Source: a virus. From it: a stretch of 25,676 bases of DNA. Location of the stretch: IMG/VR virus record IMGVR_UViG_3300029953_000143, positions 1 to 25,676 of that record. One strand, given 5' to 3'. Made by a program: the position numbers and the translations under genes. A model generated the notes under the pieces. That model was given only the letters and a program-made list of their open reading frames with translations, ran no database searches and was not told the DNA's origin. Below are positions 2,780 through 20,490 of the stretch, piece by piece (within the stretch, counting starts at the first letter, position 1; every line of letters begins with the position of its first letter).

Positions 2780-4681
2780 ATGCCCGCGATTAATCAACTG
2801 CTGAAGGTACTAGGAATAGTGGGAAGCGGCGTGTCCCGGGACACGCTTTCCCCCATGCTCAGGGGACCTACTGCGGGGGAGGAGCAGCAGCGAGAGTGGG
2901 AGAAAGCAGGACAAGTCCAGAACCCTGAGGTATGGGGTGTTTACGGAAACTACATGCAGCAGCCTGAGACGCTGGACCAACAGATGCAGCTATGGCACGA
3001 GATGTTGAACTGGGACCTCGTGGGTGCGGCCCTGAAGGAACTCTCTGAGGAGGCTACCCAGCCCGACTTCGTCACAGGTCACACGCTATGGTTTGAGAGC
3101 ACGAACAAAGCTCTGGAGAAAAAGTTGATGAAGCTGAGGGATGCTCTGGGTGTGGAGGAGCATCTGCCTTCTCAGGTTTGGCATGTGGCAGGTTACGGAA
3201 ACAACTTTGAGAAGCTTCATTACGAGACTGGACAGGGAATCACAGGGATAGGCTTCGCACACCCGATCGACGTTCGAAGGTACTGGCTGGCCAAGAACCG
3301 GCAGTGCATAGGTTTCATGTGGAAGGCAGAGGACCCACCCCAAACCGAGAACTTCCAAGTTAATGGAGCCACCTTTGTTCGAGGCACCATCACAGGAGGG
3401 GGAGCCGCCAATGTGCCAAAGAACCTTTGGTTCCCTTGGGACTTTCTGCACATGCGCAGGATGCAGCGCAGCCGTATCAATGAGCACGGCGAGCCCATAT
3501 TCAAGGAGGCTCAAGGCATCTACAAAAAGCTGCGTGTGGCACTGGACCAAATGGTGGTTCACCGTCTTCAGATTCAGCCCGACCGTTACGTGATCAACAT
3601 TGATACGAAGGACCAGCCCCCCGCAGAGCAGATGCGCACCGTGCAGAGGTGGCAGCAGATGATGAGGAAGAAGATGGCATTCGGGGCGGGTCAGAGCCAA
3701 GCCAACCTCACAGTAACGGATTTCAGGAGTCAGTACGACCCTCTAGCCTTGGATACTGTGCTTTACATGCCCATGCCAAGGGACACTCAGCACGCCATTA
3801 ACAAACTGCCGGGGACTCCACAAGTGCCCGATGTGTTCGACATCGAGCTCCTGATGAACCTCTTCTTTTCCATCATGGGGATGCCCCTGTCCTGGCTGGG
3901 CGGAATAAAGGGCGGTGGTGGTGGAGGTGGCGGCGACGGTCAGCCCGCCTCGGGCAAGGCGCTGCTTGCCCAGGATATGCGCTTCCTACGCCAAACCCGA
4001 TCTGTGAGGAAGGCTGTCATCGACGGATACACCTGGATGGCTTATTTCCATGCTTTGCTCCTAGACGAGAACATCGACGACCTGAATATATCAGCTAAGA
4101 TGAGTGATATCAGTGGGTTGGAGGACCAGATAAAACTGGAACTTCTCCAGATGCAAATCGACCTCCTGGACAAGTTAGGTTCGGCCCTGGGAAACATAGG
4201 TGTACCCCCACACGTAATGGTGGACCTAGTGTTTAGACGTTACATGAGGCTTCCGGATGACGTAGTGAACGCAGTGATCACAGCACTCCCCAGTGAGGGT
4301 CCTGCACCGGGTCAACAGGAGAACGTGAATGCCGTAGAGCAGAAGATTCGGCAAGTCATGCTCACTGAGACAGACATGACCAATAAGATAATGGGTCTCA
4401 TAAAGGTGCTCCGAAGCACGGGCGGGGAAATGGAAACCTATCTCAACGAATCTCAGAAACAGCGCGTGATGGATATGCTGCCCAGGAAAAGCACGCTGAA
4501 GTTGATGGAGTCCGTCAGAAGCCAACCCGACCACAAGAGCAACCAGATACTCATGGAGACCAAACTGGACCTGACGGGGAGTATGCCGCCAGCACCTATA
4601 CCTGCGGTGGCCCGCGGCGAGAACATGGCGAGCCCCATAGGTGGGGTACCTCAGTCGGTTCGCGGGTTTTATTCAAGATGA
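2780..4681 (+). CDS. Portal vertex protein (T4 gp20-like), 633 aa
   Basis: The portal is the dodecameric ring at one capsid vertex through which DNA is packaged and to which the tail attaches. The N-terminal region has LWHEMLNWDLVGAALKELSE followed by EATQPDF, matching the W/D-x-D-x-x-x-x-AL-x-x-x-x-D/E-E-A/C-T signature of gp20-type portals. The middle has the basic, Trp-rich stem/wing region (NLWFPWDFLHMRRMQRSRIN), then LLMNLFFSIMGMPLSWLGG with a later FLRQTRSVRKAVIDGY, equivalent to the region around the portal tunnel. A run of eight glycines lies at about residues 378-385 (bases 3912-3935). The length is normal for a myovirus portal. The stop overlaps the next gene as ATGA at 4678-4681, so the two are translationally coupled. 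Confidence 0.88.
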   Translation: MPAINQLLKVLGIVGSGVSRDTLSPMLRGPTAGEEQQREWEKAGQVQNPEVWGVYGNYMQQPETLDQQMQLWHEMLNWDLVGAALKELSEEATQPDFVTGHTLWFESTNKALEKKLMKLRDALGVEEHLPSQVWHVAGYGNNFEKLHYETGQGITGIGFAHPIDVRRYWLAKNRQCIGFMWKAEDPPQTENFQVNGATFVRGTITGGGAANVPKNLWFPWDFLHMRRMQRSRINEHGEPIFKEAQGIYKKLRVALDQMVVHRLQIQPDRYVINIDTKDQPPAEQMRTVQRWQQMMRKKMAFGAGQSQANLTVTDFRSQYDPLALDTVLYMPMPRDTQHAINKLPGTPQVPDVFDIELLMNLFFSIMGMPLSWLGGIKGGGGGGGGDGQPASGKALLAQDMRFLRQTRSVRKAVIDGYTWMAYFHALLLDENIDDLNISAKMSDISGLEDQIKLELLQMQIDLLDKLGSALGNIGVPPHVMVDLVFRRYMRLPDDVVNAVITALPSEGPAPGQQENVNAVEQKIRQVMLTETDMTNKIMGLIKVLRSTGGEMETYLNESQKQRVMDMLPRKSTLKLMESVRSQPDHKSNQILMETKLDLTGSMPPAPIPAVARGENMASPIGGVPQSVRGFYSR

Positions 4682-5385
4682 TAGCATTCTCCACCACTCC
4701 AATGATTACCACGAGTGTGGTAAACAACCAGCCCACGGTAACACTGTCGGCTTCAGTGACGGATACTGCGCTCACTTATGTCTCTGCGACGATAAACTGG
4801 GGCGATGGCACCCAGCAGACCTTTTCCCAGGTACCGAAGCCTCTCAACATCTCCCAGACACACACCTACAATAGCCCGGGGAACTTTGTCATCACGGTGC
4901 TTGCTGGGAACTTCTCCAGCCCCACACCACAGACCACCACCTGGTCTGGAGTGGCTTCATACGCCAACGCAGGGTACCCTGTAGTTTCAGCGTCAGCAAC
5001 CCCGTCCTATGCCTATATCGGACCCATCATGGCAAATGCGGTGGGGTACCCCAACCCCAACCAGTGGGCATGGCAGTTCGGAACGGACAACGCAACGCTG
5101 GTAAGTTCCCTCACCCTTCTCCTGTCCACAGCCCGAGGTGAGCGTCTCATGGACCCCAATTATGGCACCAATCTGCGCCAGCTCATCTTCAGTCTCTCAG
5201 GACCGATTGTGAATGATGCCATCTACAGTGATGTGCAGCAGGCCGTGGCAACATATGAACCGAGAGCTCAGTTGGCTGACTTAGCCTCCACCATATCTGG
5301 TCGAATCATCACTGTTAATGCAGATTTCCAGTCGTTGATAAATGGTCAGGCTTTTTCACTCCCAAGTTTGAACATTACGGCATGA
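4678..5385 (+). CDS. Baseplate wedge protein: PKD domain fused to gp25/GpW domain, 235 aa
   Basis: Residues about 8-78 form a PKD-like immunoglobulin fold, with INWGDGTQQTF and later THTYNSPGNFVITV, the usual W-x-F/D-G-D-G and H-x-Y-x-x-P-G-x-Y/F features. Residues about 140-222 match gp25/GpW baseplate wedge proteins: SSLTLLLSTARGERLMDPNYGTNLRQLIF, then VQQAVATYEPRAQL, corresponding to R-x-G-E-R-x-M-x-P-x-F/Y-G-x-x-L-R and the W/Y-E-P-R motif. gp25 helps start sheath assembly on the baseplate. Most gp25 proteins are about 130 aa with no added domain; the PKD extension may give a surface-exposed or contact module. It starts at ATG 4678 inside the portal stop and ends in an ATGA overlap with the HU-like gene. 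Confidence 0.82.
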   Translation: MIAFSTTPMITTSVVNNQPTVTLSASVTDTALTYVSATINWGDGTQQTFSQVPKPLNISQTHTYNSPGNFVITVLAGNFSSPTPQTTTWSGVASYANAGYPVVSASATPSYAYIGPIMANAVGYPNPNQWAWQFGTDNATLVSSLTLLLSTARGERLMDPNYGTNLRQLIFSLSGPIVNDAIYSDVQQAVATYEPRAQLADLASTISGRIITVNADFQSLINGQAFSLPSLNITA

Positions 5386-8916: not shown

Positions 8917-9240
8917 ATGCGCCCCGTATATCCTAGTGAACTCCGAGCTAAAACCGATACAGGTGGTGTGGTGGACACTCCTTCGAAAGAGGTGCTGTCA
9001 CCGATTGAAGTGGCCATCACCGCTAACCGGACAAACATCGCGTGCTTGTCGGATTCCATCGCAGTGCTGGAGCAACGGCTAGGTCCCGTTTTGAAGGATA
9101 AGGCAAGCCCCCCTAGCGACGAGGGCATTAAAGCTGCCTCAGAACCCTATAGGATTGATGAGCACATCGACACTGCAACCCGTAGGTTGCATTCTTTGAC
9201 GATGCGAGTTGAGGAAATCAAAGCCCGACTACTTCTCTAA
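8917..9240 (+). CDS. Small coiled-coil protein between SSB and UvsX, 107 aa
   Basis: The start is ATG 8917 because a strong ribosome binding site, GGAGGGG, lies at about 8902-8909; a longer in-frame form beginning at TTG 8887 is unlikely. The protein has a polar N-terminus, then two heptad-like helices: SPIEVAITANRTNIACLSDS leading into IAVLEQRLGPVL, and HIDTATRRLHSLTMRVEEIK. It has no recognisable enzyme motif. Its stop overlaps the UvsX-like start as TAATG at 9238-9242, so the two are translationally coupled. A role in the recombination complex is suggested only by position. Confidence 0.72.
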   Translation: MRPVYPSELRAKTDTGGVVDTPSKEVLSPIEVAITANRTNIACLSDSIAVLEQRLGPVLKDKASPPSDEGIKAASEPYRIDEHIDTATRRLHSLTMRVEEIKARLLL

Positions 9241-10553
9241 TGGCCACACTACGCGCTAAGGGTCCCAAGGACGTGATGACTCGTGTCCTTACCAAACTCC
9301 AACCGTCCCAAGGTAACGGAAAGAAGCGTCCGTATGAGGTCACCAGGTCCTCCACGGCACCTCTCATGTCTGGGATAAAGTACATCCTCCAGACGGGCAT
9401 TGAGCCCATTGATGAGTACACGGGAGGTTTCCCCTTCGGTCGTATCGTGGAGGTGTACGGCGTGGAAAGCTGTGGCAAGACTGCTCTCTGCCTCAGGTGC
9501 TGCGTCCGCGCCCAACTCCGCTTCATCTACGAGCGGTCAATTGACGCGACCACGAAAGCCATCACCTACAGCCGCATTGATGAGGCGTGTGAGGTGGTAA
9601 TCCTCTACATCGACAACGAGCAGTCGCTAGATGAAGGAGCTAAGGTAATCGTGGACGGCGTGGAAATTGACGCCTTGGTCGCTCGCTGCGATACCGTCGA
9701 TCAACTCTTCAAGATGATTGATGACACCATTAATGTCGTCGAGACAATCACAGAGGAGGCGGTTGCAGCCGCCAAGAAAAAGGCGAAGGACGATGGTACA
9801 GACTACGTTGAACCGCTGCCCACCTTTGTGGTGGTAGTTGTGGACACGATTGCAGGCACCACCACCCAAACCGACCTGGATGCCGAGTGGGGCAGCATGG
9901 ACTACCCGAGGATGCCCCGTCAGTTGAAGCAGGCGTTCTCCCAGATGACGCGGAAGATCAACCGCAACAATGTCCTGTTCATCGCCACCAACCAGGTGGG
10001 CGAATCCTTCAAGCCCAAGAAGAGGGGTTTTGTGAACCCCTACGCACTTGACCTACCCCGGCCAGAGGACTTCACCTCGCCCGGTGGACGCGCACTGAAG
10101 TTTTTCGCCACGATGCGAATCTTCATGTTCCCCGTGAACCTCGCCTTTAAGCTGAGCAAGAGGCACTCCAACCCGGATGGTTTCACCGCAGGCTTCGTGA
10201 CGGTGAAGAACCGTCAGGTGAAACCGTACAGGGAGGGTCGGTTTACCCTGCTCTACGAGGGAGGCTTGGACAATGTCTTCAGCATATTGGAGACCATGTT
10301 CAAGTGTAAGACAGCCGTACGTGGGGAGAAGGGCGTGATAGAGTTTAGGTTCCGCGCCCACAAGATTGAGACCAAGACATTCCCCAAGTTGAAGCCCACA
10401 GAAAACCCCGACCTTACTGAGGGCAATGCCGCATGGCCTGCCTACTATCAGGAGCATCTGGAGGACATGAGAGCCCTCTGGAACAAGACCATTGAACTCA
10501 CATTCAACGAAGTCGATGCCGTAGCGGCCGACGATGATGAGGAAGGAAACTAA
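9240..10553 (+). CDS. UvsX/RecA-like recombinase, 437 aa
   Basis: This is a RecA-fold ATPase for strand exchange. The Walker A motif is GVESCGKT at residues 74-81 (classic RecA has GPESSGKT), preceded by IEPIDEYTGGFPFGRIVEVY. The catalytic glutamate segment is ILYIDNEQSLD (E127, matching the FIDAEHALD region of RecA). Walker B is FVVVVVDTIAG, with D202. NNVLFIATNQVGESF matches the L1/L2-preceding RecA region, and SPGGRALKFFATMRI the PGGxALKFxAxxR segment of RecA-family proteins. The C-terminus is extended and acidic (AVAADDDEEGN). An insertion between about residues 165 and 195 is rich in charged residues (AAAKKKAKDDG). The ATG overlaps the preceding stop. With the gp32-like and possible UvsY-like proteins it forms a T4-type recombination module. 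Confidence 0.9.
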   Translation: MATLRAKGPKDVMTRVLTKLQPSQGNGKKRPYEVTRSSTAPLMSGIKYILQTGIEPIDEYTGGFPFGRIVEVYGVESCGKTALCLRCCVRAQLRFIYERSIDATTKAITYSRIDEACEVVILYIDNEQSLDEGAKVIVDGVEIDALVARCDTVDQLFKMIDDTINVVETITEEAVAAAKKKAKDDGTDYVEPLPTFVVVVVDTIAGTTTQTDLDAEWGSMDYPRMPRQLKQAFSQMTRKINRNNVLFIATNQVGESFKPKKRGFVNPYALDLPRPEDFTSPGGRALKFFATMRIFMFPVNLAFKLSKRHSNPDGFTAGFVTVKNRQVKPYREGRFTLLYEGGLDNVFSILETMFKCKTAVRGEKGVIEFRFRAHKIETKTFPKLKPTENPDLTEGNAAWPAYYQEHLEDMRALWNKTIELTFNEVDAVAADDDEEGN

Positions 10554-10559
10554 TTTACT

Positions 10560-11366
10560 ATGAGTACTACTAACCCGCCACATGTTAACTTCATCAAGGC
10601 CAATTTGGTTCTGAATTACCTTGCGAAGGACACCGACCTCTCACAGGCCCTCGGGCCTGATGACGTGGTCATCAACAAGAAGTCCACGAACGAGGATTTT
10701 CTTTTCCCCCAGGAGGTCATCACCGTGCTCACCCACATGGGTGAAAAGGGTATTGATCCCACCAAGGTGACCAAGGACTCTATCCTCACTATTGCCAGGG
10801 AGGTTCTCCTTGGCGTAGCCCCGGCCCCTGAGGCTGAGGCTGAGCCTGCTGTTGAAGCAGAGGCTGAAACTGAGGTCGAGGTAACGCCCCCGCCTCCCCC
10901 GAGGCCCGCACCCCGTCCCGCCCCGAGGACCCGCACCGCTCCTGCGGCTGTGATTCCTGCTGCTGCACCCGCTGCCCCAGTGGTTGCACCTGCGCCGGTT
11001 GTGGCACCCGCAGTTGCCCCCGCCCCCGTGGCCCCCGTGGTCCCTGCGGTCCCTGTGTCAACGCCCCCGAGGACCCGCACCGCACGCCCCGCCCCCGTAG
11101 CAGCGGCACCTGTGGCACCTGTGGCACCTGTGGCACCTGTGGCAGAGGTGCAGCAGCCTCCCGAGGTGGTCGAGGTCAAGACGGAGAATGCATCTGCCCA
11201 GAGCGTTGCCGACCAGCAGTTGACCAACAGCGCCTCCACGGTCATCTTCCAGCTTCTCGCTGGCGCACAGCACTTCGCCCTGCGTTTTGACACGGCACCG
11301 GGCTTCGAGGCTCGCCGGGAGAAGTTTAAGGCGCTGTACACTGAGTACGGCACCTTTATCAAGTAG
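10560..11366 (+). CDS. Pro/Ala-rich protein with conserved end domains, 268 aa
   Basis: Function unknown. Residues 1-80 form a helical N-terminal domain (FIKANLVLNYLAKDTDL, then EVITVLTHMGEKGIDPTKV). About residues 81-200 are a low-complexity Pro/Ala/Val/Arg linker that includes acidic EAEAEP units and PRPAPRTRTAP units like those in the SSB tail. The C-terminal domain ends ALYTEYGTFIK. The 213-aa protein at 15932 has a similar N-terminal LTHLTEKG segment and ends ILYTEFGLRE, so the two look like diverged paralogues. GGAAGGA at about 10541-10547 may serve as ribosome binding site. It follows UvsX by 6 bases, so it belongs to the recombination operon. Confidence 0.75.
   Translation: MSTTNPPHVNFIKANLVLNYLAKDTDLSQALGPDDVVINKKSTNEDFLFPQEVITVLTHMGEKGIDPTKVTKDSILTIAREVLLGVAPAPEAEAEPAVEAEAETEVEVTPPPPPRPAPRPAPRTRTAPAAVIPAAAPAAPVVAPAPVVAPAVAPAPVAPVVPAVPVSTPPRTRTARPAPVAAAPVAPVAPVAPVAEVQQPPEVVEVKTENASAQSVADQQLTNSASTVIFQLLAGAQHFALRFDTAPGFEARREKFKALYTEYGTFIK
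11105..11140 (+). repeat. 9-bp tandem repeat, four copies, in the Pro/Ala linker
   Basis: The unit GGCACCTGT is repeated four times without mismatch, coding for APV in tandem. Being in frame, copy-number change would lengthen or shorten the linker by three residues per unit. Slippage variation is plausible but not shown here. Confidence 0.9.
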
Positions 11367-11381: not shown

Positions 11382-11412
11382 CTAGCACGGTTCTTAAGGG
11401 GTGGTTGGTCGT

Positions 11413-13728
11413 ATGACCGATCACCCCTTTCCCATGGACGACACCGAAGACACCACAACACCTGAAAAGCCCAAGGCACCCTCAGGTCAACATATCTTTG
11501 ATAACGACCGCCTGGAACAGGTAGCCAAGGACTGGAAGAAAATGGTGGCGGAAGGTCGCCGGAATGAGGCGATGCCCCTCCTGGAGGAGCTCATAAAGGG
11601 GTGCCAGGACATGTTGCCCCGGCTGGCTCAGTACGAGGGCTTCCACCTCACCGTTGATGTGGACACCCTGATTGCGGGAGCAAGTGCCAAGATAGAGGCG
11701 TGGTTGATGGCATGGAAGCCCGACTACAAAAATGCGGCTACCCAGAAGGCGGCTGCACACGGGCTCTTCAGCTTCCTCTCAAAATGCACATCTGGAGACA
11801 CTAGAATAACTTACGCAAATGGAGAGAGACACAGAATAGACGAAATAGTAGAAAATAAACTCACGCCTGAAATTTTGGCCTACGACGAGGTGCTAGACAA
11901 GATTGTCACCGCTCGTGTGGTAGACTGGCACAAAAACCCAGCCGTGATGGAGGAGTGGCGTAAACTCCAGGTGAAGTGGACCACTCGTAGAGGCAAGACT
12001 CTCTACGTGACCGGCGAGCACCCGATGTACACCCAACGTGGCTGGGTAGCCGTCGATGACCTAGTAGCGTCCGACACCCTGCACATGGGTACCTCCCAGT
12101 TCACTCCTCCAGGGTGGAGTGCTATTGTGGGAATGTACCTGGGCGATGGCCACCTACGGCCAGATGGCTGTCTCGTGGTTGGACACGGTGACAAGCAGCA
12201 CGCCTATGTGGAGCACCTAGCAGAGAAGTTTAACCAAGTGCAGTTCGAGTCTACTGTAGTACACAACTTCGGAGGGTCTACCCGAGACAACACTCGCGTC
12301 TATGACGTTTCAAAGGTGACCATTTCTCTCAAGGAGAGGTCTAGCATCTGGCATAATCTGGTGGAGAACGTTGGTGACATGTCCATGGAGGCAATGAAGA
12401 AGGCCAACTGGAAAAAGTGCGTCACGCCATGGGTCATCTCCCAGCTTAACCCAGTAGCTCTGGCCTACTGGTACATGGATGATGGCTCGACTCACCACAG
12501 CCCAGAGAATAGCGACAAGCCAGTGACAGAAGTAACTCTCCATACGGAGAACTTTTCCATAGGAGAGGTAAAGATGTTGCAAGATTACCTGCTCACCTTG
12601 GGAGTAAACACGGCATTTCGCAGGCGTAAATTGAGCGATTACGGTTACCTGTACATCACGGCAGCCTCACGGGATACCTTCTTCACCCTCGTTGCCCCCC
12701 ACGTTATTCCTTCGATGCGGTACAAGTTGCCTGAGGAGTACCGCGACAGGCTTTATGAAGACCTTGATTTCGTAGAAACGAAAGTAGTTCCTTGTTCCAG
12801 TTGGAAGATTCGGGTCTGCAAGGGTCACGCCAACAACCACCGTGTCAACCGCACCGATGGACCTCCTGAGCGGCTACGCCGTGACAAGGACGGTCACACC
12901 TGGTTCACACCTGACTGGAAATGGAAGTACAACATCGAGGTGGACGGCCCCAACACTTACATTGCCGAGGGCATCGTTGTGCACAACTGTGCCAAGAACG
13001 CCTTCAGAAGCGAACTCTCCAAGGTTAACCAGTACCGCAGGCACTTTCATGCCAGCGGCGAGAATCTTGAGAAGTTTTACGGCGAGGTGGACTACCAGAA
13101 GTACAAGGATGAAGCCACCCAGGAGGTTCGCAACAACCTGAAAGACCTCACGGTAAGATGGGGGGCCGAACAGGAGATTGGCTGCGTTCGGTTCATCGTG
13201 GAGAGCATCACGGAAGAAAAACCCCCCGGTGTGGACGAGGAAGAGAGCGCCACGGAAACTAGGGAACGCATTACCAGGAGTGCGGCGTACGCCTGGTGCG
13301 TCAGCCCTGATATGGCGAAGTTTTTCTACAGTTGGGCGGTTTACGCCCTTCGTGACTCGATGTACAAGCGGGCGTACATCCCTTTCACCGAGGAAGATGT
13401 TCTGAGACACGCTGAGACCTACACCCATCTTCCAGACCTGATGGACATCATCGGCTGGGATAAGTTCAAGCGTGTGATAGCCACGTTAGGAGGCACTCGA
13501 CTGAAACTGCCCACGATGCAGCAACTCGGGAAACTCCACGAAAATTATCGGCTTGCCCATGCCATCCAAGAGGAAGGTGATGATCCAGAAACCGTGGAAC
13601 GTGTAGGAAAAAGGTTTAACAGAAGCCAGAAGACCGCCCAACAGGTTTACGTGGAAGTTAGCGAAATGATTGATCATAGGAGATGTGGGGAACACTCCTT
13701 GTTCAGTGATGACGACTCTTCGGAGTAA
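11413..13728 (+). CDS. Putative late sigma factor (T4 gp55-like) interrupted by an intein; 771 aa precursor, 370 aa after splicing
   Basis: Without the intein, the host protein reads GLFSFLSKCAKNAFRSELSK across the junction, in a context AWLMAWKPDYKN that resembles sigma-70 region 2 and the T4 gp55 segment with ITQACFNAFVQRIKKE. gp55 directs RNA polymerase to late promoters. The C-terminus ends HSLFSDDDSSE, similar in style to the gp55 end (SLDFLYE) that binds the sliding clamp. A helical segment near the C-terminus (VERVGKRFNRSQKTAQQVYV) could be a DNA-binding helix-turn-helix. The start is ATG 11413, with AAGGGG about 12 bases upstream; GTG 11401 would leave no room for a ribosome binding site. 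It is about twice as long as T4 gp55, so extra domains exist. The family call is inference from motif similarity. Confidence 0.65.
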   Translation: MTDHPFPMDDTEDTTTPEKPKAPSGQHIFDNDRLEQVAKDWKKMVAEGRRNEAMPLLEELIKGCQDMLPRLAQYEGFHLTVDVDTLIAGASAKIEAWLMAWKPDYKNAATQKAAAHGLFSFLSKCTSGDTRITYANGERHRIDEIVENKLTPEILAYDEVLDKIVTARVVDWHKNPAVMEEWRKLQVKWTTRRGKTLYVTGEHPMYTQRGWVAVDDLVASDTLHMGTSQFTPPGWSAIVGMYLGDGHLRPDGCLVVGHGDKQHAYVEHLAEKFNQVQFESTVVHNFGGSTRDNTRVYDVSKVTISLKERSSIWHNLVENVGDMSMEAMKKANWKKCVTPWVISQLNPVALAYWYMDDGSTHHSPENSDKPVTEVTLHTENFSIGEVKMLQDYLLTLGVNTAFRRRKLSDYGYLYITAASRDTFFTLVAPHVIPSMRYKLPEEYRDRLYEDLDFVETKVVPCSSWKIRVCKGHANNHRVNRTDGPPERLRRDKDGHTWFTPDWKWKYNIEVDGPNTYIAEGIVVHNCAKNAFRSELSKVNQYRRHFHASGENLEKFYGEVDYQKYKDEATQEVRNNLKDLTVRWGAEQEIGCVRFIVESITEEKPPGVDEEESATETRERITRSAAYAWCVSPDMAKFFYSWAVYALRDSMYKRAYIPFTEEDVLRHAETYTHLPDLMDIIGWDKFKRVIATLGGTRLKLPTMQQLGKLHENYRLAHAIQEEGDDPETVERVGKRFNRSQKTAQQVYVEVSEMIDHRRCGEHSLFSDDDSSE
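11785..12987 (+). mobile_element. Intein with LAGLIDADG homing endonuclease, 401 aa
   Basis: Numbering is from ATG 11413. The first intein residue is C125 in CTSGDTRI (splicing block A). T200-G-E-H203 is the block B TxxH. The end is EGIVVHN (H524, N525), followed by C526 as the +1 residue, so all splicing residues are present. Between them are two LAGLIDADG endonuclease motifs, IVGMYLGDGHL (D245) and LAYWYMDDGST (D356/D357), both with catalytic acids. The intein therefore looks able to splice and to home. The first 100 bases are AT-richer than the flanks and use AGA and ATA codons, a sign of separate origin. Removal rejoins LSK and CAKNAF in the most conserved-looking helix of the host protein, as is usual for inteins. 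Confidence 0.95.
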
Positions 13729-13775: not shown

Positions 13776-14981
13776 ATGACAAAACGAAAACGAATCCTAT
13801 GGTCGTTGTCGGAAGTTAAACTTGTCGTTGACAAGGTTCTCCAACTCCTGAACACGAACCGGGTGGTTACGATCACTGAGAGGGACCTGATAGAAAAACT
13901 AGCGGTGGCACAGATACTTGTGCTGCCTGTGGATAGGCAGAGAAGTTTCGACAAGGTGCGAAGCTTCTGGTCTGCCGCCCACCGACCAGCCACGAAAAGA
14001 GCACCCTACGGGGGTGACCTTGTAGGGAGTCTTAGAGCCGCACTAACCTCCAATGGGTGGAAATTAGCGGACGGGGTGTACCATAAGCTTGGAGAGTCGG
14101 GCATCCTTCGGGTGAACAAACTCACCCGAATCGAACTCCCCGTTCGAGAAAGCACAGTGTGGGAGTTCGCGGAGGCAGGGGCATCCACAGTGAAACCACC
14201 CGAGGTGCGGCAAACAGAAATCCCTCTCGCAGCCACTGTGTCACCGGAGGAACTGCCCGACATTCCAGGACGCAGCTTGACCGAGGCGAGAGCCTTTGAG
14301 AGGTGGTACGCTGATAACCAATCGTCTCGGGGGTCTGTGACGGAATCGTGTGCCGCATGGAAAGCAGGAATAGCCCATGCTAGAGAGGAGCAGGACAGCC
14401 CTCCAGCGCCTAAGAGCATGGGAGCCCTCTGGGAGAAGGTGGGAGAGCAACTCTTTTCTGCTCTAGACCTTCTGAATAGTCGCCTAGACAAGGTAGAAGC
14501 CAATCAGGAACGCATCCTCGGAGAACTGAACAACACCAGTGACTTCGACACCCTCCTTACGGATGAGGTGGACGAGTTGCGCAAGGAGGTTCAACAGATC
14601 AACGAGGGCGTGAAGGTGGAACTGAAGACACCTCCGAGGGCAGACCAGTGGCGGGCGGGAAGCAATGTGGTGGCTGTCACCATCATCGGACTGAGGGACA
14701 GGGATACTGCCTTGGTAAACGCCAAACTCAAGGGCGTGCCGGGTGCTGAAAACCTCAACCTGAGGTTCATCCCTGCAAGCCGTTCACCATGCCCGCTGAG
14801 TGCAGACTACGCTCTCGTCATGCGCTGGGTTTCCCATCCGTGGTACAACCAAGCGAAGGAGGCGGTGAAGGATAAGGCCAACTGCATATTCCTCAGCCAC
14901 AGCGGAATTTCCAGCGTGGTGCAGGAACTCAGCAAGATAGTGGACGTAGAGAGCCAGCGGCGAAACCAACGCACTAGTTAG
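13776..14981 (+). CDS. Coiled-coil protein with DUF2325-like C-terminal domain, 401 aa
   Basis: Function unknown. The N-terminus (LWSLSEVKLVVDKVLQLL, then TITERDLIEKLAVAQILVLP) is helical and basic, possibly DNA-binding. Residues about 115-195 are a low-complexity linker. A coiled coil lies at about 215-280 (LFSALDLLNSRLDKVEANQE, then DEVDELRKEVQQINEG). The C-terminal part, about 295-390, reads VVAVTIIGLRDRDTALVNAK, then ADYALVMRWVSHPWYNQAKE and ANCIFLSHSGISSVVQELSK, with the nucleotide-fold-like pattern of DUF2325 domains (an S-H in the middle and a gxssl near the end). It stands alone between its own promoter candidate and a strong terminator. The domain match is from memory of the pattern. 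Confidence 0.7.
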   Translation: MTKRKRILWSLSEVKLVVDKVLQLLNTNRVVTITERDLIEKLAVAQILVLPVDRQRSFDKVRSFWSAAHRPATKRAPYGGDLVGSLRAALTSNGWKLADGVYHKLGESGILRVNKLTRIELPVRESTVWEFAEAGASTVKPPEVRQTEIPLAATVSPEELPDIPGRSLTEARAFERWYADNQSSRGSVTESCAAWKAGIAHAREEQDSPPAPKSMGALWEKVGEQLFSALDLLNSRLDKVEANQERILGELNNTSDFDTLLTDEVDELRKEVQQINEGVKVELKTPPRADQWRAGSNVVAVTIIGLRDRDTALVNAKLKGVPGAENLNLRFIPASRSPCPLSADYALVMRWVSHPWYNQAKEAVKDKANCIFLSHSGISSVVQELSKIVDVESQRRNQRTS

Positions 14982-16585: not shown

Positions 16586-16870
16586 GTGGCCAGCGTTGTC
16601 TTTAACAATAGTTCTGCGGGAAGCCCCGACTCCTACTACTGGGACTTCGGGGATGGGGGAACCTCCACCCTAGCAAACCCCACGTACAACTACAACTTTA
16701 GCGGAGTGTACGTGGTGAGGCTCACGGCTACTAAGGCCGGTGTGGGGTCCACGATTTCCAAGGCGGTGCCCATACAGGCGGGTCCCATTGCATTCACCCT
16801 GATGGCGAACAACGAGGGCGCTACGCTCGCTACGAACTCAGGTACCCTTATTGCAGCCGTGGTGGGTTAG
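16586..16870 (+). CDS. PKD-domain protein, 94 aa
   Basis: A GTG start is used because an in-frame TAG lies just upstream. Residues about 3-70 form one PKD-type immunoglobulin fold: VVFNNSSAGSPDSYYWDFGDG, then ANPTYNYNFSGVYVVRLTAT, with the W-D-F-G-D-G core and the typical Y-x-Y/F-x-x-x-G-x-Y strand. The rest (about 71-94) is a hydrophobic, low-charge tail. PKD folds on phage particles commonly act as surface decorations or adhesion modules. A second PKD fold occurs in the gp25 fusion at 4678. It lies just before the large repeat fibre, and the two share the same leader, so they are probably partner fibre or decoration proteins. Confidence 0.72.
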   Translation: MASVVFNNSSAGSPDSYYWDFGDGGTSTLANPTYNYNFSGVYVVRLTATKAGVGSTISKAVPIQAGPIAFTLMANNEGATLATNSGTLIAAVVG

Positions 16871-16896: not shown

Positions 16897-19140
16897 ATGG
16901 CCACTATTCTGTGTGAAAACCTCCCCACTGTGTCGCTGCTGGTGTCAGTGGACGGTGTCGTTTGTCAGCCGAAGACGGGAGATACTTCGGTCATCACCCT
17001 AAGTTCTCTGGCCAGCTCTCTTCTCACGGTCATAAACGCAGGAGGTAGCAGTGGGTTAAATCTAGGGACTGGCACGGTAGGGAGCATCACTGCGGCTCAG
17101 ATTGGAAGTGTAAACGCCGGGGTTATCGTTGGAAGTGTAAACGCTAATCAGATCGGTTCCGTCAATGCCACCACGATCGTTGGCTCCATTACGGCAACCC
17201 AGATTGGAAGTGTAAACGTAGGCTCCCTTGTGGGGAGCATCACTTCTTCCCAAATCGGCTCTGTGTCGGCAGGCACCATCACAGGATACATCCAGGCGGC
17301 ACAGATTCAGAGCGTCAACGCGACCCAGATAAATGGCAGCATCACGGCGGCACAGATAGGCTCGATCAATGCCTCAGTGATCAATGGCAGCATCACGGCG
17401 GCACAGATAGGCTCGATCAATGCCTCAGTGATCAATGGCAACATCAATGCCTCTAACATCACGAGTGTCAACCCGGGTGCCATCAACGGCGTAATTTCTG
17501 CCAATCTTATTGGAGGCGTGGCTGCGGCAAACATCAGTGGCAACATAACGGCTTCTCAGATTGGAAGTGTAAACGTGGGTGTCCTGAACGGTGTCATCAT
17601 AAGCAGCCAGCTACAGACAGGCATCATCAATTCTCTTAACCTGCTCAGTAACCAGCTGAACATAACGCAGAGTGTCACATCTCTGCCAACGTTGCCCAGT
17701 GCCAGTTACCCGGTTAGTGCCCTGGTATTGAGGACCACGGATAAGACGCTGTGGCAGGTGAATGGCGCGGGCACAGGCTGGGTGCTGACCACAGCCTCAA
17801 GTACCATCACGGGCTCCATCACATCCTCGGACATCACCGGTGTGAATGTGGGCGTGCTTAACGGGCTCATCCTAGCCGCTCAGATTGGAAGTGTAAACGC
17901 TTCTGCAATCTCGGGCAATCTCACCGTAGGTGGTAACATAGGCTCGATTGCCGCAGGACTCCTCACGGGCTCTATCTCTGCCAATCAAATCTCGATCGAC
18001 GGTTCCAACATTACGGGTACTATCACCGCAGGTACCATCACGACCATTGATGCCTCGCAGATCACGGGGCTCCTACAGGCTAACCATATTGGTGGAGTGA
18101 ACGCAAACATCATCACGGGCTCCATCTCGTCAGGTCAGGGTCTCACTATCAATGCAGGTGTAATCAATGGGGGCACCGTAGCCTCCAATGTAACGATTAA
18201 CGCATCAAGTCTCACCGGCACAGTGGGGTCGGGCTCGTGCTCGATATCCTCTGCCTACCTGAGCGGAACCATTTCGGCAGGCCTCATCACCAGCATCAAT
18301 ATCAGCGCCCTGGGGAATGGAACGATTCCTGCCGGGGTGGCTGTACCCGCAGGTCAGATTTCAACGGGCACTCTGCCCGCTAGTGTCACCATCCAAGCTG
18401 GAAGCGTCGGAAGCGTCAGCATCAGTGCTCTTGCTGCGGGCACAGTGGCATCCGGAGTTGTGGTTCCTGCCGGACAGATTGGCACGGGCTCTCTCCCCAC
18501 CACGGTGTCAGTGAGCGCTACAAGCATCGCAAATGTCAATGCGAGTGCCATCAGCACGGTGAATATCGGAGCCATCGGGGGAGGCACATTCAATTCCAAC
18601 ATCACGCTGCCTGCGGGTCAGGTCGGAGCGGGCACACTGCCCTCCAACGTTACAATCCAAGCCGCTAGCATCGGCACTATTAACGCAGGTTCCATCAGCG
18701 GCTACATCAATTCGGGCAACATCAACAGCGTAAACGTTTCAGCCCTGTACGGAACCATCAGTGCGGCTAGCGTAGCAGGCACCTTCAACAACTGTAACTT
18801 CTACGTCGGAAATTACAGCGGTGCAGGAGGTTCTGGAGTAGGGATTAACAGTTCTGGATTTCAGGTAGGTTACGTGTCAATCACTGGAAACGGCACCAAC
18901 CAGAATACCATCAGCATTGGTGGTCCATACAGTTGTTCCATGACGGGTGGCGTGGCAAATTCAGGGTTCTACGTTAGCACAGGAGGCAGCTATAGTGGCT
19001 CGGGTGGCTCTATCAATATGCTAAACGGAGCTCTTAGCTTCCTAGTGAGCCGCGGGACAGGGGTGGGGGGCTTTGTAGGCTATCTCTACTTCTACTGTTC
19101 GGACGGTACACACGCAGCGGTGCCCTTCTACAACTTCTGA
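16897..19140 (+). CDS. Large repeat-rich tail fibre-like protein, 747 aa
   Basis: Residues about 55-620 are built from short repeats of the form GSI-T-A-A-Q-I-GSVNA, alternating G-x-I/V, x-A-x-Q-I and S-V/I-N-A/V. This periodic Ile/Val/Gly/Asn pattern is typical of beta-helical or triple-stranded fibre shafts. The repeats are interrupted near residues 250-300 by a non-repeat domain (LPTLPSASYPVSALVLRTTD, then LWQVNGAGTGWVLT) of a kind found in many phage fibres. A later region repeats IPAGVAVPAGQISTGTLPAS-like units. The last 120 residues, rich in Gly, Ser and aromatic residues (NYSGAGGSGVGINSSGFQVG; VGGFVGYLYFYCSDGTHAAV), look like a distal head domain. At DNA level it contains a perfect 51-bp tandem duplication and four copies of a 19-mer. 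Confidence 0.8.
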   Translation: MATILCENLPTVSLLVSVDGVVCQPKTGDTSVITLSSLASSLLTVINAGGSSGLNLGTGTVGSITAAQIGSVNAGVIVGSVNANQIGSVNATTIVGSITATQIGSVNVGSLVGSITSSQIGSVSAGTITGYIQAAQIQSVNATQINGSITAAQIGSINASVINGSITAAQIGSINASVINGNINASNITSVNPGAINGVISANLIGGVAAANISGNITASQIGSVNVGVLNGVIISSQLQTGIINSLNLLSNQLNITQSVTSLPTLPSASYPVSALVLRTTDKTLWQVNGAGTGWVLTTASSTITGSITSSDITGVNVGVLNGLILAAQIGSVNASAISGNLTVGGNIGSIAAGLLTGSISANQISIDGSNITGTITAGTITTIDASQITGLLQANHIGGVNANIITGSISSGQGLTINAGVINGGTVASNVTINASSLTGTVGSGSCSISSAYLSGTISAGLITSINISALGNGTIPAGVAVPAGQISTGTLPASVTIQAGSVGSVSISALAAGTVASGVVVPAGQIGTGSLPTTVSVSATSIANVNASAISTVNIGAIGGGTFNSNITLPAGQVGAGTLPSNVTIQAASIGTINAGSISGYINSGNINSVNVSALYGTISAASVAGTFNNCNFYVGNYSGAGGSGVGINSSGFQVGYVSITGNGTNQNTISIGGPYSCSMTGGVANSGFYVSTGGSYSGSGGSINMLNGALSFLVSRGTGVGGFVGYLYFYCSDGTHAAVPFYNF
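17098..17899 (+). repeat. Dispersed 19-bp repeat inside the fibre gene, four exact copies
   Basis: CAGATTGGAAGTGTAAACG occurs at 17098-17116, 17200-17218, 17557-17575 and 17881-17899, with a shorter form at about 17129-17143. All are in the same frame (Q-I-G-S-V-N). Codon choice elsewhere in the same protein motif differs (CAGATAGGCTCGATCAAT), so these copies look like recent duplication or recombination rather than protein-level constraint. Confidence 0.85.
17332..17433 (+). repeat. Perfect 51-bp tandem duplication inside the fibre gene
   Basis: Two identical 51-base units (17332-17382 and 17383-17433) encode NGSITAAQIGSINASVI twice. Lack of any mismatch implies a recent duplication or gene conversion. 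The unit is 17 codons, so gain or loss keeps the frame and changes shaft length. Confidence 0.92.
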
Positions 19141-19185: not shown

Positions 19186-20490
19186 ATGCCAGAACGTAAT
19201 CCTCCTCTTGTTACCAGTTGGGTAGTCGTCACCTTTAAGAAACCGCTCCAGTGGAGCCGTGCCGATGATGAGGTGTGGATGTTTAACCCACATGTCCGGT
19301 ATGTGTTGAACCACCATCAACTAGAGGGCTTGAAGCCCTTCATCGCCACTATCAGTGAACTGAAGACTGGAGGCAACTACAGGCAACTCAACTCCAGCAC
19401 CCCGCTCCAGGGAGCTCGCATCCTCATTGAGCGGTACCGTGATCGAGGCATCGGGGACCTTCTCTTTCTCTCGGGCGTGCTCCAATACATCTATGATATG
19501 TCAGGGAGTACCTCCATCATTGATCTATACGCTCTGACGGACCGGGCGGGTGTACTCAGGTTTCATCCGGCACTGGGCAACTCTGCGGCAGGTGACCCCT
19601 ACGGTCCTCTTGCAGGTCCTATCTTGTACGACAGCCTTCCCCACTACACTGCCCATTGGTTTATCGAGCAGGTGACGGAGTACGTGGAGGAGCCTGATCA
19701 ACTCAACGTCTACGACCAACTTTACCGTCAACTGGGCATCGACCCCAAGAACGTAGCCCCGAAGTACAAGCGACCCTACGTCTACTACTCCCAGTCGGAT
19801 TGGCGGGACTTGGATAGCATCTATGCCACCGCCTACGGCACTCAACAGGTGGACCTGCGGGTGACTCCCTACATCGTACTCTGTCCGGCAGCGTATGGTA
19901 GTCTTCGCAGTGCGCCCTATAGGATGTGGCTTGCGCTCGCACAGGCACTTTCTGACAAGTTCGTGGTGTGCTTCGTGGGTCGCACCTCGGATCAGGGACA
20001 ACTTCCCGCTCCTGATATCACCTTTGGTGAGTTTTACCAAGAGGTGGACGCACTCACCAAGAAGAACCCAAAGCGTATCTTCAATCTCATTGGACCCACG
20101 CCCCTGCGACCCATGATGGCTTTCGTGGCCCGCTCCACAGCCTTGGTATCCTTGGACTCTGGTATGCTCTATGTGGCGCAGGCTGCTCGGGTGCCTGCCG
20201 TGTCGCTTTGGGGTACTCATGCCCCCCACGCACGTCTTCTCTATGACGGTCCCTACATGCGGGGTGCGGTGTGGAAGAGGGAGAGTTGCCCTGCATCACC
20301 CTGTTGGGCGTATGCAGGTTTTCCCACAGACCGATGCCCCCAAGGTGATAACCAGAGAGTGTGCCACCCTCTGGCCACCATCACGGTGAACGACATCCTT
20401 CAGAGTCTTGACACCGTACTCACTGATGTGAATGGTGCGCGGCCTCCTCAGCCCCTCATTGCGTCAGATGCAGTAAAGACTTTGACTTAA
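19186..20490 (+). CDS. GT9-type (heptosyltransferase-like) glycosyltransferase, 434 aa
   Basis: The C-terminal half carries the family 9 glycosyltransferase signature: ARSTALVSLDSGMLYVAQAA, then RVPAVSLWGTHAPHARLLYD, equivalent to the D-S/T-G-x-x-H-x-A and x-x-x-G-x-T/P loops that bind the ADP-sugar in LPS heptosyltransferases; the usual His is Tyr here. An N-terminal Rossmann-like part includes ILIERYRDRGIGDLLFLSGV, matching the R-x-x-x-x-G-D-x-L/v motif. A Cys-rich patch (ESCPASPCWAYAGFPTDRCP, then C) is unusual. It follows the large fibre gene, so it may glycosylate a fibre or virion protein, or alter host surface sugar to block superinfection. GGAGGG abuts the ATG, an atypical spacing. 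Confidence 0.78.
   Translation: MPERNPPLVTSWVVVTFKKPLQWSRADDEVWMFNPHVRYVLNHHQLEGLKPFIATISELKTGGNYRQLNSSTPLQGARILIERYRDRGIGDLLFLSGVLQYIYDMSGSTSIIDLYALTDRAGVLRFHPALGNSAAGDPYGPLAGPILYDSLPHYTAHWFIEQVTEYVEEPDQLNVYDQLYRQLGIDPKNVAPKYKRPYVYYSQSDWRDLDSIYATAYGTQQVDLRVTPYIVLCPAAYGSLRSAPYRMWLALAQALSDKFVVCFVGRTSDQGQLPAPDITFGEFYQEVDALTKKNPKRIFNLIGPTPLRPMMAFVARSTALVSLDSGMLYVAQAARVPAVSLWGTHAPHARLLYDGPYMRGAVWKRESCPASPCWAYAGFPTDRCPQGDNQRVCHPLATITVNDILQSLDTVLTDVNGARPPQPLIASDAVKTLT

Follow-up and report, generated by a model that had tools for sequence, protein, structure and literature searches.

The 747-residue open reading frame analysed here is best explained as encoding a phage tail-fibre or tail-adhesin protein with a shaft of 17-residue units, each probably one rung of a beta-solenoid. 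One 51-bp unit of this shaft has recently been duplicated without loss of frame. Replication slippage between short direct repeats is the likeliest cause, and four 19-mers in the same gene are probably older traces. We assign this reading a probability of roughly 0.8.

Genomic setting and organization of the putative fibre gene

The window, by which we mean the whole 25,676-base stretch of viral DNA that was analysed, encodes a T4-type portal, a gp25-like baseplate wedge and a UvsX-like recombinase, as judged by family profile matches. The features under study are listed in Table 1. A small PKD protein (16586-16870, + strand) is encoded just upstream of the fibre gene, and a family 9 glycosyltransferase frame (19186-20490, +; 82% identity in the relative described below) follows directly after it. 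Another frame (4678-5385, +) combines a PKD domain with a gp25-like baseplate domain. The frame at 11401-13728 (+) is interrupted by an intein that includes a LAGLIDADG endonuclease; PF03161 matches at E 9.6e-18 and Intein_splicing at E 2.9e-6, the latter under the cut-off. For the interrupted protein the sole other family hint is weak (E 0.0056 to phrog_836, late transcriptional activator). The relative's homologue (L004:18432-19715) is without the intein and continuous across the site after ...FLSK, with 74 and 77% identity on the two sides of the insertion site. A Pro/Ala-rich frame (10560-11366) holds a perfect 9-bp array, GGCACCTGT, in 4.4 copies at 11105-11144.

Searches with the 747-residue protein gave no match to Pfam or NCBIfam profiles and one weak match only to PHROG (E 0.09). 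Its shaft units share a motif around G-x-I-x4-I-x-S-V/I-x-A. Similar units, together with the non-repeat module of residues 232-304, lie within an 1882-residue protein matching central tail fibre J (phrog_31, E 5.5e-21; Phage-tail_3, E 2.3e-9), and related units with the module are also present in the 'host specificity protein J' of DSS3_PM1 and DSS3_VP1. The array is shared in part by a protein on contig L002 that has at its end a weak match to Peptidase_S74 (E 0.005, under the curated cut-off). As related arrays occur in J-like proteins, the frame is best read as that of a tail-fibre shaft protein, a reading made by homology and not by experiment.

Table 1. Coordinates of the features discussed in the text (window numbering).
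Feature	Position	Strand	Evidence or remark
UvsX/RecA-like recombinase	9240..10553	+	PF00154, E 6.7e-23; phrog_97 UvsX-like, E 1.4e-38
Repeat-rich frame, 747 aa, putative tail fibre/tail adhesin	16897..19140	+	Open frame; 806-aa orthologue in IMGVR_UViG_3300049719_000183
N-terminal non-repeat region, residues 1-61	16897..17079	+	Residues 1-58: 69% identity to relative, gap-free
Shaft 1, ten 17-aa (51-bp) units, residues 62-231	17080..17589	+	Autocorrelation peak at lag 17 aa; pattern-found starts 62, 79, ... 215
19-mer copy 1 (QIGSVN codons)	17098..17116	+	Exact match
19-mer copy 2	17200..17218	+	Exact match
Duplicated 51-bp block, copy 1	17332..17382	+	Identical to copy 2, 51/51 bases
Duplicated 51-bp block, copy 2	17383..17433	+	Identical to copy 1; exact lag-51 run extends to 17440
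AATGGCA, 7-nt exact homology, also opens each copy	17434..17440	+	First mismatch after 7 nt; likely slippage junction
19-mer copy 3	17557..17575	+	Exact match
Conserved non-repeat linker and module, residues 232-304, ...SLPTLPSASYPVSALVLRTTDKTLWQVNGAGTGW...	17590..17808	+	67% identity to relative, gap-free
Shaft 2 and C-terminal repeats, residues 305-626, degenerate	17809..18774	+	Weaker autocorrelation
19-mer copy 4	17881..17899	+	Exact match
C-terminal region, residues 627-747, possible tip	18775..19137	+	Least conserved, 37% identity to relative; low pLDDT

Predicted fold of the shaft

Modelled alone by AF2, the shaft was predicted to form a beta-solenoid (pLDDT 94.7, pTM 0.90); the model of the full-length frame was poor (mean pLDDT 61.0, pTM 0.42). 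Two beta-helices were the solved folds closest to the shaft model: first 3p4g, an antifreeze domain (Z 18.3, rmsd 2.1 over 191), then 4i84, the HxuA secretion domain (Z 14.3, rmsd 2.7 over 172). Realignment of the whole model by VIA placed 3p4g (Z 18.5, rmsd 3.6) together with 2odl (Z 16.4, rmsd 3.0) on top. VIA matches to LpxD, GlmU and similar enzymes were set aside for an rmsd above 10. Foldseek with the whole model against the PDB returned no match at E 0.001, and no solved structure was found by sequence up to E 1. Against viral structures, the shaft alone reached a TMq of 0.73 (an uncharacterised phage protein) among the 50 matches listed; those to the whole model were uninformative, with TM-scores of at most 0.23 among 50 matches listed. 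As AF2 is biased toward solenoids for perfect repeats, being reported in the accessible part of one study to give unrealistic ones (PMC11795689), the beta-solenoid stays a prediction.

On this model each 17-residue unit probably corresponds to one rung. The rise of a beta-solenoid is about 4.8 Å per rung. One extra rung would therefore lengthen the shaft by only about 0.5 nm, so that a strong effect on reach from a single event is unlikely.

Duplication of a 51-bp unit and the 19-mer repeats

The exact run at lag 51 spans 58 nt (17332-17389 against 17383-17440). TRF independently reported the same region (17328-17446, period 51, 2.3 copies, 97% matches). The duplicated segment amounts to exactly one 17-residue unit added to the ten-unit array, with the reading frame kept. 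As a control for chance, two runs of 1000 permutations each were made in which codons changed places among positions encoding the same amino acid. The longest exact repeats obtained were 29 nt in the first run and 32 nt in the second, compared with the 58 nt observed, a length reached in 0/1000. The original prediction of a perfect tandem duplication at 17332-17433 was thus borne out: the duplication is in frame and in excess of chance.

The same prediction pointed to four exact copies of a 19-mer, CAGATTGGAAGTGTAAACG, between 17098 and 17899. All four were confirmed on the + strand of the window, with none on the - strand, and in 1000 codon shuffles no 19-mer rose above 2 copies. A 15-nt core of this sequence, TTGGAAGTGTAAACG, has a fifth occurrence at 17129, all five lying in one codon phase. 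The spacings between the 19-mers (102, 357 and 324 nt) are each divisible by 3. The first two equal 2 and 7 units of 51, so an exchange between those copies would keep the unit register; the third is not a multiple of 51 because the non-repeat module lies between. The four copies are probably older traces of the same process, left by unit duplication or gene conversion. When viral_contigs was scanned for the 19-mer, in a search that may omit records very close to the window, one contig matched (L008); it was rejected as a chance hit when tblastn at E 1e-3 found no fibre homology.

Comparison with the nearest relative

Scans of viral_contigs yielded one true relative, IMGVR_UViG_3300049719_000183, with the fibre orthologue at L007:15978-18398. 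No near-identical strains of the window phage were found in viral_contigs or genome_contigs, scans in which very near records may be left out. The same scans also gave contigs with partial matches (L002 and L003) and a Bryobacteraceae MAG contig (L012), and the window frame at 13776-14981, used as a query against viral_contigs, had no match. Between window and relative, dS across 10 genes ranged from 1.41 to saturation (portal 2.48, recombinase 2.13, fibre 2.11), whereas the two copies of the duplicated block show 0 differences at about 13 synonymous sites. As the copies are identical while orthologue dS is near saturation, the duplication is recent relative to the split of the two phages.

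Shaft 1 is 45% identical between the two proteins (residues 59-231; other regions in Table 1). In the relative it is without the window's 51-bp duplication and is composed of 18-residue units, 11 in phase and 10 fitting the unit pattern, compared with 10 units of 17 residues in the window. The 18-residue period runs through the whole of the relative's shaft 1 (lag-18 identity 0.68), and the stretch past the conserved module still gives a lag-17 signal, though a weak one of 0.24. The first arrays of the window protein and of the related proteins L012, L015 and L016 all consist of 17-residue units. The claim of a recent in-frame expansion in a probable fibre shaft is therefore supported by the identical copies and by a unit number and length that differ in the nearest relative.

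The relative has in-frame exact repeats of its own. The longer one (115 nt at lag 156) falls in the region matching shaft 2 and the C-terminal repeats of the window, which there consists of 26-residue repeats; another measures 74 nt at lag 108, and all 10 exact pairs of at least 25 nt in the fibre gene have lags divisible by 3. Direct repeats within 1 kb were also scanned (lags up to 999). In the relative (27.9 kb scanned), the fibre gene accounted for 10 of the 11 exact repeats of at least 25 nt, though any repeat lying across contig position 33165 would have escaped the scan. The window's fibre gene likewise held 5 of the 7 exact repeats of at least 20 nt, and outside it the 9-bp array at 11105-11144 was the only other case.

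Related shafts in other genomes

Of 237 genomes searched from one bacterial family, three had a match, the query genome G002 being one of them. The shafts L012, L015 and L016 come from genomes of this family (the query contig is titled Bryobacteraceae), and the module recurs in all three when read from their sequences. The 1882-residue J-like frame sits on a 4.86-Mb contig of one of the three genomes, so the array there is presumably in a prophage. An acidobacterial host for the window phage is at most a lead suggested by these matches.

Exact repeats in the related genes were compared with codon shuffles. The shaft L015, from genome G147, has an exact run of 169 nt at lag 51, a length reached in 0/500 shuffles, and four of its tandem 17-residue units are identical in protein and DNA. 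It has four pattern-matching units before the module and eight after, counts taken from reading the sequence as the automatic unit pattern misplaced the module start (496). L016 has 33 nt exact at lag 75, just over the shuffle maximum of 30. The J genes of DSS3_PM1 and DSS3_VP1 (Naomviridae) have 62 and 32 nt exact at lag 204, equal to four units, against shuffle maxima of 35 and 29 (500 shuffles each). Nothing beyond chance was found in L012 (longest exact repeat 17 nt, equalled by 437/1000 shuffles) or L002 (10 nt, 879/1000). L012 and L016 have open 5' ends, so the numbers of units counted ahead of their modules are minimum values. The related shafts have acquired similar repeats independently, and unit gain is recurrent among them, though L012 and L002 show none.

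The two DSS3 proteins have 32 to 34% identity to the window protein and 39% to the L012 protein, but are far longer (2575 residues) and carry an fn3 domain. Both phages have the same unit number, and their J genes are of the same length at 96.4% nucleotide identity, which counts against rapid change of shaft length as a rule. The check on repeat number in relatives was therefore divided: it differs in the orthologue (10 against 11 units), but the J proteins of the DSS3 pair are equal in length.

We also asked where the nearest unit to each unit lies among five proteins, comparing the first 48 nt per unit (for L016 its five pre-module units only, for L015 matched units only). The nearest unit was in the same protein for 11/11 units of the relative, 5/5 of L016, 7/10 of the window, 8/12 of L015 and 6/14 of L012, and in another protein for 3/10, 4/12 and 8/14 of those from the window, L015 and L012, respectively. 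Unit similarity in the window shows no fall with distance between units. As many units are nearest to other proteins and the window lacks distance decay, homogenisation appears weak outside the relative.

Origin of the duplication

Under the favoured reading, short direct repeats of AATGGCA were already present in neighbouring units, replication slippage between them would have duplicated one 51-bp unit in frame, and each such gain would mainly lengthen the shaft by one rung. Block-flank homology today is exact over 7 nt; downstream, 18 of 30 nt are alike (those 7 included), and upstream 15 of 30, although the flanks seen now may differ from those at the time of duplication. Replication slippage needs no more homology than a 7-nt flank. 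Strand exchange by a UvsX-like protein usually requires longer homology, and T4-type recombination prefers about 50 bp or more. With exact homology this short at the flanks, slippage is favoured for the first event. The original prediction held that the phage's UvsX-like protein aids recombination among the repeats; the gene is indeed present, but the short flank points to slippage. Once the first duplication had occurred, recombination, by UvsX or otherwise, could make use of the 58-nt run. A literature search combining UvsX with slippage found no paper.

Alternatively, the shaft might be a contingency locus, in which the UvsX-like recombinase often recombines exact repeats and a population of mixed shaft lengths is selected for host range. 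The UvsX-like gene and the recurrence of in-frame repeats in related shafts are in keeping with this, as are tail-fibre duplications found alongside changed infectivity or host range in EfV12-phi1 (accessible part of PMC6365445) and in OP1 mutants and T4 (likewise PMC2248197). We nevertheless regard it as unlikely, given exact homology of just 7 nt at the block ends and 19 to 23 nt for pairs of 19-mers, the equal J lengths of DSS3_PM1 and DSS3_VP1, and a gain of about 0.5 nm per rung that is small for an effect on reach.

Tandem repeats can cause assembly errors, as the title of PMC6868369 states, and common de Bruijn k values are near 58 nt. The copy number in the contig, a 25,676-base virus record, may therefore be wrong. 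This explanation appears less probable still: two copies plus the 7-nt homology come to 109 bp, which would fit one ordinary short read, and similar repeats are present in relatives that were assembled independently. That no recent event occurred, the units being kept alike in DNA by protein constraint and codon bias, is hardly credible even with their shared motif, as 0/1000 codon shuffles reach the observed repeat length and lag-51 blocks of the window outside the duplication agree at just 6 to 12 of 17 nt.

Relation to known tail-fibre duplications

In T4, duplications of gp37 adhesin domains were reportedly described by Tetart et al. in 1996. Duplication of a small segment of the T4 tail-fibre gene is cited together with expanded host range in the accessible text of PMC2248197. 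Both there and in the window a small segment of a tail-fibre gene, a putative one in the window, was duplicated in frame; the host range is reported to have expanded in T4, whereas the present case is a sequence observation and its duplicated unit belongs to a shaft array.

The Xanthomonas oryzae phages OP1, Xp10 and Xop411 have tail-fibre domain duplications of unsettled mechanism, and duplications accompany changed infectivity or host range in OP1 mutants (PMC2248197, in the portion available). Compared by description, these genes resemble the window frame in that domain copy number varies among related phages and short direct repeats bound the domains, but differ in having three domains in about 118 N-terminal residues. 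According to the same text, copy number is tied to host range, yet two OP1 types of the same architecture differ in host. A putative tail fibre of EfV12-phi1 has 1.8-kb tandem duplications, with a mechanism stated to be unknown in the part of the paper available (PMC6365445). By that account its unit is far larger than the one described here, was seen arising during coevolution and occurs in mixed copy numbers in long reads.

Domains of crAss-BACON are folded and about 90 residues long, so that the repeated element differs from the 17-residue shaft unit of the window. The likeness is that a single domain is serially duplicated in a tail protein, tandem repeats in tail-associated proteins having arisen in this way and an array of eight being called stable (PMC6949934, as far as the accessible text goes). 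A literature search on tail fibres with tandem repeats and a shaft gave a single paper, on polinton-like viruses. Neither this nor searches on repeat-number variation (15 of 223 matches listed) and on triple beta-spiral shafts (10 of 38 listed) gave anything on growth of phage shafts among the matches listed, judged by title.

In-frame duplication in tail fibres is already a known kind of event, to which the present case adds one more example, and gain of a single unit is an ordinary way for fibre shafts to change length. The less usual aspect is that unit length has changed across the whole orthologous array. We tentatively suggest, as a possibility that we think rather doubtful, that unit-by-unit turnover in the shafts of this lineage has gone far enough to replace even the rung length across an entire array. 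On such a view the shaft would act as an evolvable ruler along which copies of a variant unit spread and displace the adjacent units, a turnover that might contribute to changes in host range. Mixed copy numbers in population reads would turn the array into a natural test of selection on shaft length; reads showing no such mix would point to ordinary repeat turnover. An uncultured phage lineage gains a clean example of single-unit shaft growth, together with a relative in which the period of the array has changed.
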